Assembly: GCA_001595385.3 (NCBI GenBank)
Contig: LVEI03000001.1
Location: 959,501-1,023,500, forward strand
DNA from: Deltaproteobacteria bacterium GWC2_55_46
Lineage (GTDB): Bacteria; Desulfobacterota; GWC2-55-46
Direction: 5' to 3'
DNA: 64,000 nucleotides
Shown piece after piece: positions 26,203 through 53,233 of the stretch (its first letter is position 1; the number at the start of each line of letters is the position of its first letter). Both the position numbers and the translations under genes were made by a program. The notes beneath the pieces were generated by a model that did not search any database, was not told where the DNA came from, and saw only the letters and a list, made by a program, of their open reading frames with translations.

Positions 26203-27516
26203 ATGGCGAAAATACTGGTGCTCGATGACGATAGTATCTTCCGTAAGACCCTGTGCAGGGCCCTTTTAGCCAGAGGCCATGAGGCGACCCCTGCCGAAGA
26301 CGGCGCAAAGGCCGTGGACCTCGCGTCAACCAGGCGCTTTGACGTAGCCATCATCGACATGATGATGCCCGGCATGAACGGCACACAGGCGCTTGTGGCG
26401 ATAAAAGAGGCCCAGCCCTCTGTGGCCTGCATCGTCCTCACGGGCTACGGCTCCATCGCTGACGCCGTGAAATCGATCAGGCTCGGCGGGTATCATTACC
26501 TTACGAAGCCGTGCGACATCCAGGAAATAGAAGACCTCATCGCCGCGATAAAGCCCGATAGCGAGCCAGCCGCCGGAGAGGAGCGATACCAGGGGATTAT
26601 AGGTGTGAGCCCCGGCATAAAGGATGTCGTGCGCTTTATCAAGCGTGTCAAGGACTCCAATCTGCCGGTGCTTATCATGGGAGAGAGCGGCACCGGCAAA
26701 GAGCTTGTCGCGCAGGCGCTCCACTTCGACAGCAGGCGCAAGGACGCGCCCTTTATCGCCATGAACTGCGCGTGCTTGAAGCCCGGGCTCCTTGAAAACG
26801 AGCTTTTCGGCCATGTAAAGGGCGCTTTCACAGGGGCGGCAGACCAGAAAGAAGGCCTGGTGAAGGCCGCGGACAATGGCACGCTTTTCATAGACGAGAT
26901 CGGCGACCTTGACCTCTCCGTGCAGGCGGCCCTCCTGCGTTTCATAGAGACCGGCACATACAGGCCGCTCGGGTCGAGCAAGGAGATACACGTCACCACA
27001 AGGATAATAACCGCCATAAACAAGGACATAGAGGAAGAGGTGGCGAGCAAACGGTTCAGGCTGGACCTGTACTACAGGCTGAACGTCTGCAGGGTGCACA
27101 TACCGCCGCTTCGGAGGCGGCCTGAGGACATACCCGCGCTGGCAAACTACTTCCTGAGGAATATTTCAGTCGCCGAGGGGCGCAATTATGCCTTTACGCC
27201 GGAGACTATGGAACTCCTTGTAAGGCATGACTGGCCCGGAAACGTGCGCGAGCTTCTACACCTGGTACAGAGGGCGGCTGTTCTAAGCCCCGAGGACGTT
27301 ATAACGGCCGCCCAGGTGATGAAGTCTATAGGCAGAAGGCATGCGCCATCGACCGCCCAGGCCCAATCGCTTGAGGAGATGGAAAGGGGCTGCATCCTGT
27401 CGGTACTCTCCGCGAACGGGTGGAACATAAGCCGGTCCGCGAAGGCCCTCAATATCGACAGAAGGACCCTTCAGAGGAAGATGACCAAATACGCCATCAG
27501 AAGGCTGGCCCGCTGA
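26203..27516 (+). CDS. Sigma-54-dependent response regulator (NtrC family)
   Basis: A 437-residue regulator with three domains. The receiver (residues 1-115) has phospho-acceptor D52 in AIIDMMMPGMNG and the TKPCD lysine near 102. The AAA+ domain has Walker A GESGTGKE (160-167), the sigma-54-contacting GAFTGA loop (207-212), Walker B TLFIDEIGDL and arginine finger RFRLDLYYRL. A Fis-type helix-turn-helix lies at the C-terminus (SRSAKALNIDRRTLQRKM). It activates RNA polymerase with sigma-54 when phosphorylated. No kinase gene is adjacent, so it is an orphan; the targets are unknown. Confidence 0.93.
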   Translation: MAKILVLDDDSIFRKTLCRALLARGHEATPAEDGAKAVDLASTRRFDVAIIDMMMPGMNGTQALVAIKEAQPSVACIVLTGYGSIADAVKSIRLGGYHYLTKPCDIQEIEDLIAAIKPDSEPAAGEERYQGIIGVSPGIKDVVRFIKRVKDSNLPVLIMGESGTGKELVAQALHFDSRRKDAPFIAMNCACLKPGLLENELFGHVKGAFTGAADQKEGLVKAADNGTLFIDEIGDLDLSVQAALLRFIETGTYRPLGSSKEIHVTTRIITAINKDIEEEVASKRFRLDLYYRLNVCRVHIPPLRRRPEDIPALANYFLRNISVAEGRNYAFTPETMELLVRHDWPGNVRELLHLVQRAAVLSPEDVITAAQVMKSIGRRHAPSTAQAQSLEEMERGCILSVLSANGWNISRSAKALNIDRRTLQRKMTKYAIRRLAR

Positions 27517-46408: not shown

Positions 46409-47173
46409 CTAAATGTCGCCGCTTTTTCTGGCCTTTCGGACCACATAAACGGCTGTGGCCATAAGGCTCGACCAAAACAGAAAACCGAGGCCTATCATGG
46501 CGAACATGCTATAGTCGGGCCTGTAGGTCCCTGTCCTGGGGTCGTAGGTATAGCATATGGACTTCAAAAAGCCGATGAGCCCTGATGGCGCCGCGCCATA
46601 GGAGGGGCTCTCAAGGTCCCTGGACTGTGCGACGGCGTCAAGAAGGGCCGTACGGTCTATCTCTGTGCCGTAGATGCGCTTGAAGACCCTGCCGTCCGGC
46701 CCGATGACAACGGCCATGTTCGGATGGTCAAAGCCTGAATCGGACTTTGTATAGGCGAACCCAGCCTCCTTTATGAGCTTCTCCATCGCCTCCCTGTCTG
46801 AGGAGGCGAACCTCCAGGAGCTGAAGTCATCCGTGAACTGGCGGCCGTAGTTGCCAAGGGCTTCAGGGGTATCCCTCTCCGTATCAAAGCCTATGGTAAC
46901 AGATGTGAAGCCAGTGCCGAAATCAGAGCCTGGGGATGCAAAAATGCCCTTGAGGCTCGCTGTGAGCGTGCCGCATGTATGGACGCAGGAGGTATATATG
47001 AAACTTACGACCAGCGGCTTGCCATAAAGGGAGCTCAAGGCGAACCTCCTGCCGCCCTGGTCGATAAGCTTGACGTCGGCCAGCTTCCCCCCCGGAGGGA
47101 CCTCGGCTGAGGCGCTTCCCAGGGGGGCGAAAAAGACGATCATCGCGAATATGACGGATAGAAAGGTCCTCAT
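46409..47173 (-). CDS. SCO1/SenC copper chaperone for cytochrome oxidase
   Basis: A 254-residue protein with a signal peptide (1-23), a thioredoxin-fold Sco domain and a C-terminal membrane helix (about 225-245) not found in most Sco proteins. The copper-binding CxxxC is C63/C67 in YTSCVHTCGTL, with the conserved His150 in SDSGFDHPNMAVV. FTSVTIGFDTERDTPE is the other hallmark. It delivers copper to the CuA site of subunit II. It is the last gene of the oxidase operon, 9 bases after ctaB. Confidence 0.93.
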   Translation of the reverse strand: MRTFLSVIFAMIVFFAPLGSASAEVPPGGKLADVKLIDQGGRRFALSSLYGKPLVVSFIYTSCVHTCGTLTASLKGIFASPGSDFGTGFTSVTIGFDTERDTPEALGNYGRQFTDDFSSWRFASSDREAMEKLIKEAGFAYTKSDSGFDHPNMAVVIGPDGRVFKRIYGTEIDRTALLDAVAQSRDLESPSYGAAPSGLIGFLKSICYTYDPRTGTYRPDYSMFAMIGLGFLFWSSLMATAVYVVRKARKSGDI

Positions 47174-47182
47174 AATGGCTAT

Positions 47183-48037
47183 CTACCCCACTCCGACTTC
47201 CAGGAACACACCGGCGAAAAGTATCGCCAGATAGGCCATCGAGACCTTGAAGTTCTTCCAGGCTATCTCCTTCGTGGTATTTCTGACCAATCTCGCGTTC
47301 CAGTAGAGAAAATAAGCGCCAGCGGCTGTGGCCGCGACCGCATACAGGACGCCGAAGTAACCGAGGAAGACCGGCAGGAGGGAGGAGCCGACAAGCAGGA
47401 CGGTATTGATCGCGATATAGACGGCGGCCTTCCTGTCGCCGACCACATTGGGGAGCATGGGCACACCGGCCCTCTCATAGTCATCCCTGTGCACAATGGC
47501 GAAGCTCCAGAAATGCGAAGGCGTCCAGAAGAACATCACTACCGAGAGCATTACGGCGGTGGCGCAAAACTCCGGCTCGGCAGAGGCGCCGCCGGCGAGC
47601 ACCGCGAAGCTTCCGGCAAGTCCGCCGACGATGATATTGAGCCAGCTACGGCGTTTGAGCCACACAGTATATACGATAGCGTAGACGAAAGCGCCCAGGA
47701 AGAGGTGGAGCGCCACCATGTAATTTAGCTCAAGAAGAGAGATCGCAACCGACAACCCGAGGAGCACAGCCGCGGCGATAGGGGCTGCGGCGGGCGGGCA
47801 ATTTGAGGCCAGGGGCCTGCCCCTGGTCCTCTTCATCACCGAGTCTATGTCCCTGTCAAAGTAATGGTTGAGCGCGCTGGCGGCTGCCGCCGCGGCCATG
47901 GTGGCCAGGACGAGGAAAGCGAACTTCCCTGCCGTCAATCCGTACGGAGCTGCGGCAAGCCCTACGACCGCGCTCAGGGTAATAAGCCAGCATATCCTGA
48001 GCTTGAAAAGCGGCAGGTACTTGGCTATCCCGTGCAT
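47183..48037 (-). CDS. ctaB: Protoheme IX farnesyltransferase (heme O synthase)
   Basis: A 284-residue polytopic prenyltransferase with about nine membrane helices. The prenyl-diphosphate/magnesium motif is LNHYFDRDIDSVMKRTRGRPL, and the second site is FWTPSHFWSFAIVHRDDYERAG. It adds a farnesyl group to heme B to give heme O for the oxidase. A strong GGAGGAGG site precedes the ATG. It lies between the 46-residue Cys protein and sco1. No ctaA (heme A synthase) is visible, so this oxidase may use heme O or ctaA may lie elsewhere. Confidence 0.96.
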   Translation of the reverse strand: MHGIAKYLPLFKLRICWLITLSAVVGLAAAPYGLTAGKFAFLVLATMAAAAAASALNHYFDRDIDSVMKRTRGRPLASNCPPAAAPIAAAVLLGLSVAISLLELNYMVALHLFLGAFVYAIVYTVWLKRRSWLNIIVGGLAGSFAVLAGGASAEPEFCATAVMLSVVMFFWTPSHFWSFAIVHRDDYERAGVPMLPNVVGDRKAAVYIAINTVLLVGSSLLPVFLGYFGVLYAVAATAAGAYFLYWNARLVRNTTKEIAWKNFKVSMAYLAILFAGVFLEVGVG

Positions 48038-48214: not shown

Positions 48215-49840
48215 CTATTTGCCGTACCCGTAAGGGTCCCACTTCTCAGGGATCTTCAGCTCTCCGCCCCAGTTGCCGGGAGGCGGCGGCGAAGAGGCAT
48301 GCGTCCACTCGAGCGAACGCGAGCCCCAGGGGTTCTGCGGGGCCTTCTTGCCCCATATAGCCCCGTGTATCCAGGAGATGAGCACCACTACCGCCCCGAG
48401 GAATATTATGTACGATCCCCACGTGGCCCACTGCTGCAACGGCTCTATCTCAGGGAACTGCTGATAGTCGTAGTAGCGCCTCGGCATGCCCATGACGCCC
48501 ATTATCATCGTCAGCATGAAGGTTATGTTCACCCCTACGAAGAAAAGGAGGAAGCCGAGCTTGCCGAGTGTCTCGTTGTACATCTTGCCGGTCATCTTGG
48601 GGAAGGCATAATACGTCCCCCCGATGATAGCCGTTGTCACCGAGACGGCCATAACGTAGTGGAAGTGGCCAGGCATCCAGTAGGTGTCGGTAAGGTGGAT
48701 GTAGATAGCCGACATGGCGTTGGGTATGCCGGTCAGTCCCCCTATGAGGAAGAGGAAGAGAAAGCCGACCGCGTACCACATGGGGGTCTGGTACAGGATG
48801 GAGCCCTTATAAAGGGTCCCGACCAGAGCTATCATAAGGAGCCCGACCGGGACGCTTATGATGAGCGTGGTGAAGACCTGTATGAGGACAAGCCAGTCAG
48901 GCACGCCGGCGGTGTAGAGGTGATGCACCCAGACTATGCCGGAGAGCGCCACGACGCCGAGGACACCATAATAGATGGTCTTCTTGAAGTTGAATATCGC
49001 GTTCCTGGAGAATGTCGCCACTATCTCGTAGATCATCCCTATGGCGGGCAGGAATATGACGTAGACCGCCGGGTGCGAGTAGAACCAGAAGAGGTTCTCG
49101 TATATGAGCGCGCTCCCGCCTGCCGCCGCGTCGAAGAAGTGGGTGCCCACGTACTTGTCGAAAGAGAGCATGGTCACGGCCACGCCGAGGATCGGGACGA
49201 ATATGAGCTGGATTATGAAGGCCGCGAGCGTGCACCAGACAAACATGTTGAGCTTGCCCCAGGTCACCCCGGGCGCCCTCATGTGGATTATCGTGGTAAG
49301 GAAGTTCACGCCGCCCACGATCGATGAGAAGCCGATGAGAAGCACTGTAAAGGTATAGAATGCCGTGTTGCCGCCCGTTACGATAGAATACGGCGGATAG
49401 CCGGTCCACATGATGTCCGGAGGGTCGGGGATCACGAACGTAAGGAGCGCGAGCACGACACCCATGAGGAAGAGCCAGAAGCTAAAGGCGTTGAGCCTCG
49501 GGAAGGCCACGTCCTTGGCGCCTATCATGAGTGGCACGTAGAAGTTCGCGAAGAACCCGGTAAGCGCCGGTATCTGGAAGCCGAGTATCATAGCGGCCCC
49601 GTGGAAGTAGAGCCATACGTTATAGCTGCCAGGGTTATCTGTCACCGTCGGCCCGAGGCTCGCCAGCTCCGTCCTCATGAGCATGGCCATGAGCCCTGCC
49701 ACGAAGAAGGCGGCGAACGAGCCGATCAGGTACAGGACCGCGACCCTCTTGTGGTCGGTCGTGAAGACCCATTCCTTGAGGCTGAACTTCGAGTGCGCCC
49801 CGACGGAGGCATGTACTGGTTCAGCGACTGTTGAGCTCAT
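48215..49840 (-). CDS. coxA: Cytochrome c oxidase subunit I (heme-copper oxidase, A2-like)
   Basis: A 541-residue protein with 12 or more membrane helices and the heme and CuB histidines. FFANFYVPLMIGAKDVAFPR precedes RLNAFSFWLF, part of the D-channel region. The CuB site reads FWFYSHPAVYVIFLPAIGM: the Glu of the HPEVY motif is replaced, and YSHP appears instead, which marks type A2 oxidases. DTYWMPGHFHYVMAV carries heme and CuB ligands. It forms the catalytic core that reduces oxygen to water and pumps protons. The start overlaps the subunit II stop (TAATG) with GGAGGTGA upstream. Confidence 0.96.
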   Translation of the reverse strand: MSSTVAEPVHASVGAHSKFSLKEWVFTTDHKRVAVLYLIGSFAAFFVAGLMAMLMRTELASLGPTVTDNPGSYNVWLYFHGAAMILGFQIPALTGFFANFYVPLMIGAKDVAFPRLNAFSFWLFLMGVVLALLTFVIPDPPDIMWTGYPPYSIVTGGNTAFYTFTVLLIGFSSIVGGVNFLTTIIHMRAPGVTWGKLNMFVWCTLAAFIIQLIFVPILGVAVTMLSFDKYVGTHFFDAAAGGSALIYENLFWFYSHPAVYVIFLPAIGMIYEIVATFSRNAIFNFKKTIYYGVLGVVALSGIVWVHHLYTAGVPDWLVLIQVFTTLIISVPVGLLMIALVGTLYKGSILYQTPMWYAVGFLFLFLIGGLTGIPNAMSAIYIHLTDTYWMPGHFHYVMAVSVTTAIIGGTYYAFPKMTGKMYNETLGKLGFLLFFVGVNITFMLTMIMGVMGMPRRYYDYQQFPEIEPLQQWATWGSYIIFLGAVVVLISWIHGAIWGKKAPQNPWGSRSLEWTHASSPPPPGNWGGELKIPEKWDPYGYGK

Positions 49841-50589
49841 TATGCTTCACCTCCTGTGCTTTCTGCTTTTTTCGGCTTGTTTTCCTCAACCCATTTCCGG
49901 AACTCGGCCTCTGGCATCACGATGACCTTGCCGTACATGCCCGAGTGCATGGTGCCGCAGTACTCGGCGCAGGTCAAGACGTGCTCGCCTATCCCTTTCG
50001 CGTTGAACCAGAGATGGGTCTGCGAACCCGGCACCATGTCCCATTTGACCTTGTAGTCGGGCACGAAGAAGGCGTGCACGACGTCCCTGCTGGTGAGGTT
50101 CACCTTTATGGCCTTGCCCTCCGGGACCCTGAGCTCGTTGGTGGCGGTGATGCCTTCGGGGTAGGTTATATCAAATCCCCACATATACCCCTCGACCGCT
50201 ACCTCGTAGGATTCAGCGGGAGGGGTCCTCATCTTCTGCCACTGCTCGAAGTTCTTGGCGGCCAGGAATATGTCATCTGCAATGAAGAGGAAGGCCGGTA
50301 TGAATATCCAGCCCGCGGCGGCGAGCTGAGAGAGCTTAACTCCCTTGCCCTCCTCATCGCTGTTCTTCCTCCTGTACTTCACGAGAAGATAGATTATGAC
50401 AATGGCGAATAAGCCGCCTATCAAGCCGATGTCCCACATCATCTCATTCCAGAGGTGCCACCAGCCTTCGGTGATGTCAGGAACCGCTCCAGCCACCGCC
50501 GCAGCTTCCCCGGCCGCTTCCTTGGCCATGGAGGCCGCGGGCGCGAGGAGAGCGGGGACTGTCAGCAGCCATTTGATCTTTTTCATCAT
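49840..50589 (-). CDS. coxB: Cytochrome c oxidase subunit II
   Basis: About 249 residues from the ATG at 50589, behind GGAGAGGGA; longer frames extend into coxC. A signal peptide (MMKKIKWLLTVPALLAPAAS), two membrane helices and a periplasmic cupredoxin domain are visible. The dinuclear CuA site is CAEYCGTMHSGMYGKVIVMP, with all ligands present, and the aromatic YMWGFDITYPEG region carries electrons from cytochrome c. No fused cytochrome c domain follows, so it is not a caa3-type subunit. It lies between coxC and coxA. Confidence 0.95.
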   Translation of the reverse strand: MMKKIKWLLTVPALLAPAASMAKEAAGEAAAVAGAVPDITEGWWHLWNEMMWDIGLIGGLFAIVIIYLLVKYRRKNSDEEGKGVKLSQLAAAGWIFIPAFLFIADDIFLAAKNFEQWQKMRTPPAESYEVAVEGYMWGFDITYPEGITATNELRVPEGKAIKVNLTSRDVVHAFFVPDYKVKWDMVPGSQTHLWFNAKGIGEHVLTCAEYCGTMHSGMYGKVIVMPEAEFRKWVEENKPKKAESTGGEA

Positions 50590-50618
50590 TCCCTCTCCTT
50601 TCATTTTTGTCCTGCGGC

Positions 50619-51386
50619 CTACCAGAAATAGACCTGCGACACGACAAAGAACCATACTATGTCGACGAAGTGCCAGTACATGGAAGCCGCGCTCACGAAC
50701 GTCTTGTTGATCTTCCCGGCAAGGGCCGGCAGAAGGACGGCTACGAATATTCCAAGGCCGACCATCACGTGCGAGCCGTGGAAACCGGTAATGGAGAAGA
50801 AGGAGGTCGAGAAGATGTTGGTATCGAACTTGAAGCCCTCATGATAGAGCTCTGTCCATTCAAACGCCGACATCCCGAGGAAGCCCAACCCCAAGACCAT
50901 CGTGGTAACGAGCCAGAAGATGAAGCTGCTCCTGTTGTAGTGCTCCGGCTCCACGTACTTCTCCGCCATATGGATCGTGAAGCTCGACGAGACCAGTATG
51001 ACTGTCATTATGATAGGCACTATCGTAGATATCTCCGGCGTGCCGGCTGGCGGCCAGAAAGGCGCCGTAAGCCTTGTTGCCCAGTATGCCGCGAAAAAAC
51101 CCACGAAAAGCAGCGCCTCAGCGACTATGAAGAACGGCATCGCCCAGATGCTTAGACCTTCGCTGATGCCATGCTCGTCCGCGATCCCCTCTCTTACCCA
51201 GCCAGCTATCGACAACAGGACCAGCGGGGCGCCGATCCCAAGACAGATGGTCGCGTAAAGCGGCTTCTGGTAAACGAAATAGAAGCCGAAGGAGAGCGGG
51301 ATCAGGAACAATATGCCCACGCTGACCAGCATGGGCCATATGCTCGTGTGCCAACCCAACTCATGTGCATGCCCGTGCCCGTTCAT
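50619..51386 (-). CDS. coxC: Cytochrome c oxidase subunit III
   Basis: A 255-residue protein with about seven membrane helices. It opens with a His-rich NGHGHAHELGWH, and includes IVAEALLFVGFFAAYW (the conserved Glu of the lipid/proton region), FSITGFHGSHVMVGLG and YWHFVDIVWFFVVSQVYFW at the end, the classic subunit III tail. It stabilises subunit I and its proton uptake. It is the first structural gene, 18 bases after the rrf2-type regulator and 29 bases before coxB. Confidence 0.95.
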   Translation of the reverse strand: MNGHGHAHELGWHTSIWPMLVSVGILFLIPLSFGFYFVYQKPLYATICLGIGAPLVLLSIAGWVREGIADEHGISEGLSIWAMPFFIVAEALLFVGFFAAYWATRLTAPFWPPAGTPEISTIVPIIMTVILVSSSFTIHMAEKYVEPEHYNRSSFIFWLVTTMVLGLGFLGMSAFEWTELYHEGFKFDTNIFSTSFFSITGFHGSHVMVGLGIFVAVLLPALAGKINKTFVSAASMYWHFVDIVWFFVVSQVYFW

Positions 51387-51404: not shown

Positions 51405-51845
51405 TTATTTGGATAATTCGGGTCTGTTTAGTCCACTTTTATTGCCAAAAAAAAGCATTATCCCGCCTATATTCTCTGAGGACAGCACCTCCGCCACGCT
51501 CTTCGCGCATCTTTTCAAGACCCCGTAGAGCTGGCAGCCGGGTGAGTCCGGGCATTCTTCCTCCTTTCTAATGCATCTTGCTTCGACCGGGCCGTCTATA
51601 GCCTCGACCACATCAAGGAGCGTTATCATCCTCGGCGCCCTGGAGAGCATGAATCCGCCGTCCCTGCCCCTTGTAGAGGATATTATCCCCCTTGACGCGA
51701 GAGTCCGGAATATCTTCGCGAGATACTGCTTGGATATACCGGTGGCCCTGGATATCTCCTCGACGCCTGTGAAATCATCAGTTTTTGAGGCGATGTACAC
51801 GAGGCCGGCAATCGCGTACTCGGAACCCTTGCTCAACGTGAACAA
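51405..51845 (-). CDS. Rrf2 family transcriptional regulator with Fe-S-type cysteines
   Basis: A 146-residue regulator starting with TTG at 51845, with a GGGAG site about 6 bases before it. The winged helix has FTLSKGSEYAIAGLVYIAS, ISRATGISKQYLAKIFRTLA and TRGRDGGFMLSRAP. The C-terminal loop has C91, C98 and C104 (RCIRKEEECPDSPGC), the three-Cys arrangement of Fe-S-binding Rrf2 proteins such as IscR and NsrR. It probably senses oxygen, nitric oxide or Fe-S status. It is the first gene of the oxidase operon, which it probably regulates. Confidence 0.9.
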   Translation of the reverse strand: MFTLSKGSEYAIAGLVYIASKTDDFTGVEEISRATGISKQYLAKIFRTLASRGIISSTRGRDGGFMLSRAPRMITLLDVVEAIDGPVEARCIRKEEECPDSPGCQLYGVLKRCAKSVAEVLSSENIGGIMLFFGNKSGLNRPELSK

Positions 51846-51930
51846 AGAGAGCTCCCTTGTGGTGGTTCGCCTGCCGGATGGCCCCGGCCGATGGAACCTG
51901 GTTTCTGTACAGATTTACACTCGTATTAAT

Positions 51931-51946
51931 AGCAATGAACGTGCCA
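51931..51946 (-). promoter_or_regulatory. Consensus sigma-54 promoter for the rrf2-cox operon
   Basis: On the minus strand TGGCACGTTCATTGCT matches the sigma-54 consensus TGGCACG-N4-TTGC(T/A) at every defined base, with the -24 box at 51940-51946 and the -12 box at 51931-51935. Transcription would begin near 51920, about 75 bases before the rrf2 TTG start. A good enhancer candidate lies upstream at 52088-52111. Sigma-54 control needs an activator of the NtrC type; one is encoded at 26203-27516 in this window. Confidence 0.72.
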
Positions 51947-52087
51947 TGACGGATGGGTTTGATTTTCAAGGCTTTTTATTTGGATTTTTTAAGCGCCAGA
52001 CAAAAGGTGCGGCAGAATGGCAGTATAAGGCAGGCTGTTGATTCACAAAAAAACGTTAAAAAACAGATAATTGAGCTTAAAATGAGC

Positions 52088-52111
52088 ATTCATGCCGCAT
52101 GCGGCATGAAT
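52088..52111. promoter_or_regulatory. 24-base perfect palindrome, candidate enhancer (UAS)
   Basis: ATTCATGCCGCA (52088-52099) is followed directly by its exact reverse complement (52100-52111), so all 24 bases are symmetrical. It is centred about 180 bases upstream of the predicted sigma-54 start, the usual distance for an activator's binding site. There is no T run, so it is not a terminator for the kinase gene just upstream, which ends at 52127. Binding by a specific activator is inference. Confidence 0.6.
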
Positions 52112-52126
52112 TCACATAAATAGAAG

Positions 52127-53233
52127 CTATATAGAGCTCTCTTCTTCTCCGTCGGGAGAAACTTTTGTCGCGTCCAAAAGGGGGATCAGCAGGTCTACCC
52201 TCGTCTGTCCCGGAACGCTTTCTACCCGTATCTCGCCCTTCAGGTCCCTCATGATGCCGTAGCTCACGGAAAGGCCAAGGCCGGTGCCCTTGCCAACCGA
52301 TTTCGTCGTAAAAAATGGCTCGAAGACCCTCTTCAAAAGCTCCTTCGGTATGCCGGGGCCGTTGTCGGCCACGCTCACCTTTACGAAGCCTGACGCCGCG
52401 GATGTGGAGACCTCTACGGCTCCGCCGCCGCTCTCCTCGGCCGCCTCGATGGCGTTTTTGATGACGTTGAAGAGCACCTGCCTGAAACGGTCAGGGTCGG
52501 TAAGGACGACAGGCAGCCCGGGGTCGAGCGACTCCCTTAGCTCCACAGGCCCTCCGTGCCTGCCCTTCTTCACGAACTCCAACGTCCTGGAGACCAGGGA
52601 ATTCATGTCAGTCGGAACGGTGCGGGAGGCCCCGCCGCTTGAGAAACCGAGGAGGTCGTTTATGATGCCCTTGCACCTGTTTATCTCGCCCTTCATGTCG
52701 GAGAGGTACTCGCGGAGCATCTCCTTCGGCACTCTCTCCTGAGGCATCTCTATCGCGCGCTCAAGCTCGGCGGATATTATTGAGATGGTCCCGAGCGGGG
52801 TGTTGAGCTCATGGGCTATACCTGCCGCGAACTGGCCTATGGCGGCCATCTTCTCGATCTTTTCCATCAGCTCTTCCTGCTCTATCTTTATAAGGCGCTT
52901 GCCTGTCACGTCCATTACTATCTCCAGGACGCTCCCTGGCACTCCGCCCTCCCCGAGTACGGGTATGGCTATTACCTCAAGGCTTTTCTGCGTGCCATTT
53001 TTTTCAAGGGAGAACTCGTAATGGGCCGGCGTGCTCAAGTCGATGGCCCTGCCTGTCGGACAGATCTTGCAGAACTCCTGGCCGTAGCTGGCTATCCTGT
53101 AACAGGCCCTTCTCTGCCCGATGTCAGGGCCGAACCAGCCTCTGGCCTTCAGGTTCATCCATTGTATCCTGTGGCGGCAATCTATGAAGACGACAGCCGC
53201 GTCCAGGTTATCAAGCGCCTCTTCTATCTGCAT
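52127..53233 (-). CDS. Soluble PAS sensor histidine kinase
   Basis: A 368-residue cytoplasmic kinase without membrane helices. The N-terminal PAS domain (residues 3-112) has three Cys, C44, C55 and C58, in [19 protein letters not shown], a CxxCP form suited to redox, metal or heme sensing. The phospho-acceptor H141 is in [16 protein letters not shown], and ATPase boxes are [22 protein letters not shown] and [13 protein letters not shown]. It is upstream of the sigma-54 promoter of the oxidase operon and on the same strand. No partner regulator is adjacent; an NtrC-type activator is a natural guess. Confidence 0.92.

Follow-up and report, generated by a model that had tools for sequence, protein, structure and literature searches.

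How is the transcription of a cytochrome oxidase operon controlled in Deltaproteobacteria bacterium GWC2_55_46, and by which proteins and DNA sites? Enzymes of the aa3 type are usually regarded as housekeeping oxidases. A sigma-54 promoter is fully dependent on its activator, so its presence before such an operon would imply a tight on/off switch for the oxidase. We address this question in the window, i.e., the whole stretch of 64,000 nucleotides that was analysed (contig LVEI03000001.1, positions 959,501 to 1,023,500), and in related genomes.

The initial annotation had read the operon as rrf2-coxC-coxB-coxA-ctaB-sco1, and Rrf2, COX3, COX2, COX1, UbiA and SCO1 domains are indeed encoded in that order:

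51405..51845, minus strand: rrf2, Rrf2-family regulator, first gene of the operon, with a TTG start (PF02082, TIGR00738)
50619..51386, minus strand: coxC, cytochrome c oxidase subunit III (PF00510)
49840..50655, minus strand: coxB, subunit II with a CuA site and without heme c (TIGR02866, CuA motif)
48215..49840, minus strand: coxA, subunit I, A2-type (PF00115, FYSHP motif)
47183..48037, minus strand: ctaB, heme O synthase-type UbiA prenyltransferase (PF01040)
46409..47173, minus strand: sco1, copper chaperone SCO1/SenC (PF02630)

The true start of coxB probably lies a little inside the reading frame 49840..50655. CoxB carries the CuA motif CAEYCGTMHSGM, and a motif search found no CXXCH in this protein; together with the FYSHP motif of CoxA, this CuA site without heme c marks the enzyme, as judged from its motifs, as an A2-type aa3 cytochrome c oxidase. 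Several heme-copper oxidase-type matches and one bd-type match were obtained in the same genome, and the aa3 oxidase is therefore one branch of several. Regarding the leader gene, a search of relatives identified six close Rrf2 orthologs in the genus and family, with 66-77% identity. Three cysteines (C91, C98, and C104) located in the ligand loop are candidate Fe-S ligands and are kept in the relatives presenting a complete C-terminus. With an Rrf2 fold and these three cysteines, the protein fits the family of Fe-S regulators, its cluster being putative. A 10-bp palindrome, TCTGTACAGA (window 51903-51912), is located just downstream of the predicted transcription start and represents a candidate Rrf2 operator, which is kept only loosely in G003.

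Upstream of rrf2, the promoter expected to drive the operon is the following:

51931..51946, minus strand: sigma-54 -24/-12 element, TGGCACG-N4-TTGCT, with a predicted +1 at about 51920

On the minus strand, positions 51946-51931 read TGGCACGTTCATTGCT, and placing the GC at -13/-12 sets the predicted +1 at 51920. The element shows the TGGCAY-N5-TTGC arrangement that defines a sigma-54 promoter, with GG at -24 and GC at -12, correctly spaced before rrf2. A consensus-matching site facing the rrf2-cox operon had already been proposed here; it is exact, and a pattern search of the whole window for TGGCACG-N4-TTGCW returned this site only. The genome harbors 10 exact sites of this kind, compared to none for the pattern read backwards, and a single rpoN gene (PF04552). 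Loss of the -24/-12 element, or of the palindrome described below, from related genomes had been fixed beforehand as a ground for abandoning the proposal, and both are conserved in six relatives. Indeed, the exact -24/-12 element precedes rrf2 at the same place in all seven orthologs of the genus and family (the window and the six relatives), amid an N4 spacer and flanks that vary. We see next to no chance that the match is fortuitous and that a sigma-70 promoter drives the operon instead: sigma-70-like matches are present in the region, but those listed nearby on the minus strand sit at the start of the kinase gene and none before rrf2, and a fortuitous match is at odds with both the seven conserved sites and the count of 10 against none in the control. 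As a separate observation, five of the 10 exact sites lie within 46 kb (G000:C1:46900-92800) and several of them precede flagellar-looking genes, where sigma-54 sites are generally expected.

Two further elements lie upstream of the promoter:

52088..52111, no strand: S1, candidate enhancer site, a 24-bp perfect palindrome with the core TGCCGCATGCGGCA at 52093-52106
52008..52014, minus strand: S2, candidate enhancer half-site (TGCCGCA; its left arm is degenerate) located upstream of the -24 element at a distance of about 69 bp

The palindrome had been described as perfect over 24 bp and located about 180 bp from the start; its sequence, ATTCATGCCGCATGCGGCATGAAT, agrees, and its centre lies about 179 bp from the predicted +1. 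Its inner 22 bp have no second site in the genome within 3 mismatches. The half-site S2 had not been reported before and is added here. Across the seven orthologous promoters, whose S1 alignment core is TGNCGCATGCGGCA, the core TGCCGCATGCGGCA is exact in six and has one mismatch in the seventh, and the TGCCGCA of S2 is invariant in all seven. Distances upstream of the -24 vary little, from 143 to 154 bp for the centre of S1 and from 61 to 72 bp for S2, and the alignment of the seven promoters thus exhibits three conserved islands (S1 core, S2, and -24/-12) amid poorly conserved intergenic DNA. This conservation designates S1 and S2 as putative distal enhancer sites of the sigma-54 promoter. 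The S2 region of four relatives (GCGGCATTNTGCCGC / GCGGCATTCTGCCGC) resembles or exactly matches the RegR box, published as GNGRCRTTNNGNCGC (PMC5506826), and the boxes of RegA, PrrA, and RegR are degenerate and species-dependent (PMC5506826). The left arm of this RegR-like box is decayed in the window. S1 also precedes sigma-54 sites in other families, and G031 and G033 have weak or degenerate enhancer sites. Some candidates were set aside, namely exact S1 matches inside coding genes in G051 and G056, one exact S1 match without a sigma-54 site in G057, and a 10-bp inverted repeat (51845-51854/52134-52143) that was judged to result from chance.

The palindrome begins 15 bases past the stop codon of the upstream kinase gene, scores as a terminator-like stem and, as RNA, folds better than shuffled sequences in the three cases tested. 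Part of the conservation of S1 could therefore reflect 3'-end formation, and S1 might mainly be a terminator or an mRNA 3'-end hairpin of the kinase (or kinase-activator) gene rather than an enhancer. The sequence of the outer arms is different in G019, G003, and G020, yet they still pair over at least 15 bp, so that a double role including the mRNA 3' end is possible. However, arms cross-paired between genomes already give 46% as compared to the 59% observed, and true covariation is therefore modest. A terminator needs only pairing, whereas the sequence of the S1 core is fixed. Moreover, no U-run directly follows the stem in this genome, most members of the genus have none, and S2, which is no hairpin, repeats the identical 7-mer at a near-fixed distance from the -24. 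The invariant core, the missing U-run in most members of the genus and the S2 repeat favour recognition of S1 by a protein, and we regard a hairpin as an unlikely main function.

A sensor kinase is encoded just beyond the palindrome:

52127..53233, minus strand: HK1, soluble PAS-HisKA-HATPase_c sensor kinase with the cysteine triad C44, C55, and C58

As initially noticed, this gene at 52127-53233 encodes a PAS kinase with a CxxCP motif: its N-terminus is PAS-like and includes FCKICP, and HisKA and HATPase_c domains follow. The cysteine pattern C[YF][RK]...FC-x2-CP is found in all 19 kinase sequences listed, among them HK2, the paralog of HK1 in the same genome. In the AlphaFold model, the surroundings of the cysteines are predicted with low confidence (pLDDT about 50). 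No transmembrane segment was detected in HK1, its highest hydrophobic 19-mer being not above 1.43, and a domain search gave no match to a globin domain. Its score against the NCBIfam model ActS_PrrB_HisK is 89.6 bits for a cut-off of 350. Having no recognizable membrane sensor, HK1 appears to stand outside the RegB/PrrB kinase family.

The activator proposed for this promoter is encoded at a distance, on the opposite strand:

26203..27516, plus strand: NtrC-type activator with REC, AAA+ with GAFTGA, and a RegA/RoxR-like HTH

Its REC domain (PF00072) contains the phospho-acceptor Asp in IIDMMMPGM, its AAA+ domain (PF00158) has the Walker A motif and the GAFTGA loop, and its C-terminal HTH is of the Fis type (PF02954). 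Searched alone, this HTH has as its best solved-structure match 3rqi (E 6.7e-6), a short RegA/RoxR-like response regulator, and it matches PrrA (1umq) weakly (E 0.18). The HTH is thus related to that of RegA, PrrA, and RoxR, but the AAA+ domain sets the protein apart from these short REC-HTH regulators.

The initial annotation had suggested this protein as the activator, possibly phosphorylated by the PAS kinase next to the palindrome, and the relatives speak for both. In five of the six, the genes orthologous to these two are neighbours and immediately precede the palindrome and the rrf2-cox sigma-54 site. In G019, G004, G005, and G002 the pair is adjacent and directly upstream of S1; the kinases are about 62-70% and the activators about 62-66% identical to the proteins of the window, and the two genes overlap by a base in places. 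In G001 the pair is also adjacent and upstream, with both reading frames interrupted, and in G003 the activator is directly upstream and the contig ends inside it. S1, S2, and the sigma-54 site of G001 (L045 10860-13065) are intact despite the broken frames, which may come from sequencing error or recent decay. The pair is split, by about 25 kb, in the genome of the window only, and comparison of gene orders supports well that this genome split an ancestral kinase-activator pair. In a tree, the activator of the window and the kinase-adjacent activators form one clade with support of 100/100, from which the other activators of the genome are excluded. A family profile, which itself contained the sequence of the window's activator, gave 837 bits for this protein and 410 for the next activator of the genome. 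By these comparisons, 26203-27516 is the clear ortholog of the kinase-adjacent activators.

The sigma-54 promoter could also be real and be driven by another protein, HK1 having lost its partner at the split. The genome offers a choice of about 18 full-length sigma-54 activators, and about 25 kb separate HK1 from the gene at 26203-27516, which is on the other strand; being unlinked to the kinase, this activator could have changed partnership. However, 26203-27516 is alone among them in clustering with the activators encoded next to the kinase and in retaining their IDRRTLQRK recognition region. Moreover, with S1 and S2 still in place in this genome, a matching reader protein is expected there too. 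We therefore hold the recruitment of another activator to be very unlikely and retain 26203-27516 as the partner of HK1.

Beyond the family, the PAS domain of the kinase was found in 21 of the 63 genomes of a class-wide search. The activator follows the kinase in those fetched neighbourhoods that are complete enough to read, and similarly in three Nitrospirae/Nitrospinota MAGs. The genes next to the pair vary. In G031, which belongs to another family, the pair is adjacent and downstream of the rrf2-cox operon; G032 has it before sigma-54-coxCBA without rrf2, with an outer-membrane barrel gene between; and G050 presents the activator, then a sigma-54 site, then coxC. The pair precedes a sigma-54-like site followed by an outer-membrane barrel gene and a bd-type subunit in G020, that of a cupredoxin gene in G048, and, in G057, that of a gene for an outer-membrane-like protein and a second one for a diiron-type, oxygen-binding protein, G059 being similar. 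In G053 the neighbours of the pair are rrf2 and another heme-copper oxidase, and in the Nitrospirae MAG L054 it adjoins a divergent cydAB. Several of these targets are again preceded by S1 and S2. In G060, S1, S2, and the sigma-54 site are kept before the same outer-membrane-like gene as in G057, and the kinase-activator pair was not found in this 62%-complete genome. Two observations may be added on these loci: the region upstream of rrf2 in G031 (L047 5300-6010) has several long inverted repeats around the sigma-54 site, resembling insertions of mobile elements, and the target in G057 (L084 746-2549) is an unannotated outer-membrane-like protein beside an ODP-family (PF19583) metallo-beta-lactamase-fold protein.

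A genome-wide search for half-sites upstream of sigma-54 sites, as advised in the initial annotation, was performed in 12 genomes with the compound pattern TGCCGCA-N45-75-TGGCAY-N6-TGC. It gave nine matches, all of them at promoters belonging to this system, and the reversed controls gave none; of the nine, seven are at rrf2-cox, one is in G058, and one is a second match in the genome of the window, which thus has two, compared to none reversed. In this second promoter (G000:C1 about 2551467-2553644; L092 3468-5645), S2 is perfect and S1, TGCCTCATGCGTCA, is degenerate; its sigma-54 site reads TGGCACCCCTATTGCA. It lies between an outer-membrane beta-barrel gene (G000:C1:2551467-2552147) and HK2, the second copy of the cysteine-PAS kinase. 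After the rrf2-cox operon, the beta-barrel gene is likely the second target of this activator, and the arrangement of sites suggests a two-promoter regulon.

As established for these families, dimers of NtrC-type activators occupy paired distal sites and, once assembled, remodel the sigma-54 polymerase. Along these lines, the rrf2-cox control region is very probably a sigma-54-driven one in which HK1 and 26203-27516 act as a cognate two-component pair through the enhancers S1 and S2. HK1 would read redox or oxygen, a signal suggested by the cysteine triad, the RegA-like reader and the targets, and would phosphorylate the activator. The phosphorylated regulator would then bind as dimers to S1 (TGCCGCA/TGCGGCA) and to the half-site S2, oligomerise into an AAA+ ring and open the sigma-54 polymerase waiting at 51931-51946, leading to transcription of rrf2, coxC-coxB-coxA and the assembly genes ctaB and sco1. 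Rrf2, encoded first, may exert negative feedback on the operon, and the promoter of the beta-barrel gene is a predicted further target of the same regulator, perhaps acting with the second PAS kinase. We also lean, less firmly, towards a previously undescribed redox regulon extending across the class. It would combine a cysteine-PAS kinase with a sigma-54 activator bearing a RegA-type DNA reader on an NtrC chassis, attached in different families to different oxidases and electron-transfer genes (aa3 with or without Rrf2, bd, another heme-copper oxidase, a cupredoxin, and a diiron-type protein), with the ancestral pair split and two promoters kept in the present genome.

An uncultured deltaproteobacterial lineage thereby gains a concrete and testable circuit of oxygen or redox control with predicted DNA sites, and the signature of these sites, a half-site followed after about 60 bp by a -24/-12 element, has enough specificity for regulon prediction across genomes. 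The circuit also links RegA-type redox DNA recognition with sigma-54 enhancer activation, which are usually treated apart.

The initial annotation had known of no sigma-54 control of an A2 oxidase through this arrangement. For an aa3 target, no case was found in the open literature, most subscription papers being outside its scope; the main texts of a Geobacter RpoN regulon paper and of a cross-phylum sigma-54 paper include no oxidase. Sigma-54 control of the cbb3 and cyd oxidases is already published, and the general idea is therefore less unprecedented than was supposed. In Myxococcus xanthus, the NtrC-like regulator NmpR of the NmpRSTU system relies on sigma-54 to control a cbb3 oxidase as well as other genes of oxygen use (PMC11841059). 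Common to both systems are a response regulator of the NtrC type, a pair of enhancer sites, sigma-54 promoters, a terminal oxidase among the targets and an association with oxygen. However, the NmpR site GCGCA-N5-TGCGC differs from TGCCGCATGCGGCA, the sensor of NmpRSTU is a relay of a protoglobin kinase and a hybrid kinase instead of a PAS kinase, and its target is cbb3, with no rrf2 leader gene described, instead of aa3 with an rrf2 leader. Similarly, the cyd operon of Acidithiobacillus ferrooxidans has a mapped sigma-54 start and the activator gene AFE_0957 upstream (PMC5506826), and thus has in common a terminal oxidase with a promoter of the -24/-12 type and, next to it, a gene for a sigma-54 activator (here, in the relatives), but it encodes cytochrome bd rather than aa3 and no palindrome was assigned to its activator. 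With RegB/RegA, PrrB/PrrA, RegS/RegR, and RoxS/RoxR, the present system shares the RegA/RoxR-like HTH (3rqi, and 1umq weakly) and, in four relatives, an S2 resembling or matching the RegR box; oxidases are classic targets of RegB/RegA-type systems, and HK1 likewise has conserved cysteines. RegA-type regulators, however, are without AAA+ and do not open sigma-54 promoters themselves, whereas the activator described here has this domain, and the membrane protein RegB contrasts with HK1, a soluble kinase carrying a PAS domain. NtrB/NtrC offers a soluble PAS kinase, a REC-AAA+-Fis activator and distal palindromic enhancers as well, but differs by its target, nitrogen rather than respiration, by its DNA site, and by the cysteine triad found here in the PAS domain. 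As far as the open literature shows, what is new here is thus the combination of an aa3 target with an Rrf2 leader, a cysteine-PAS kinase, a RegA-like reader on an NtrC chassis, and TGCCGCA sites.
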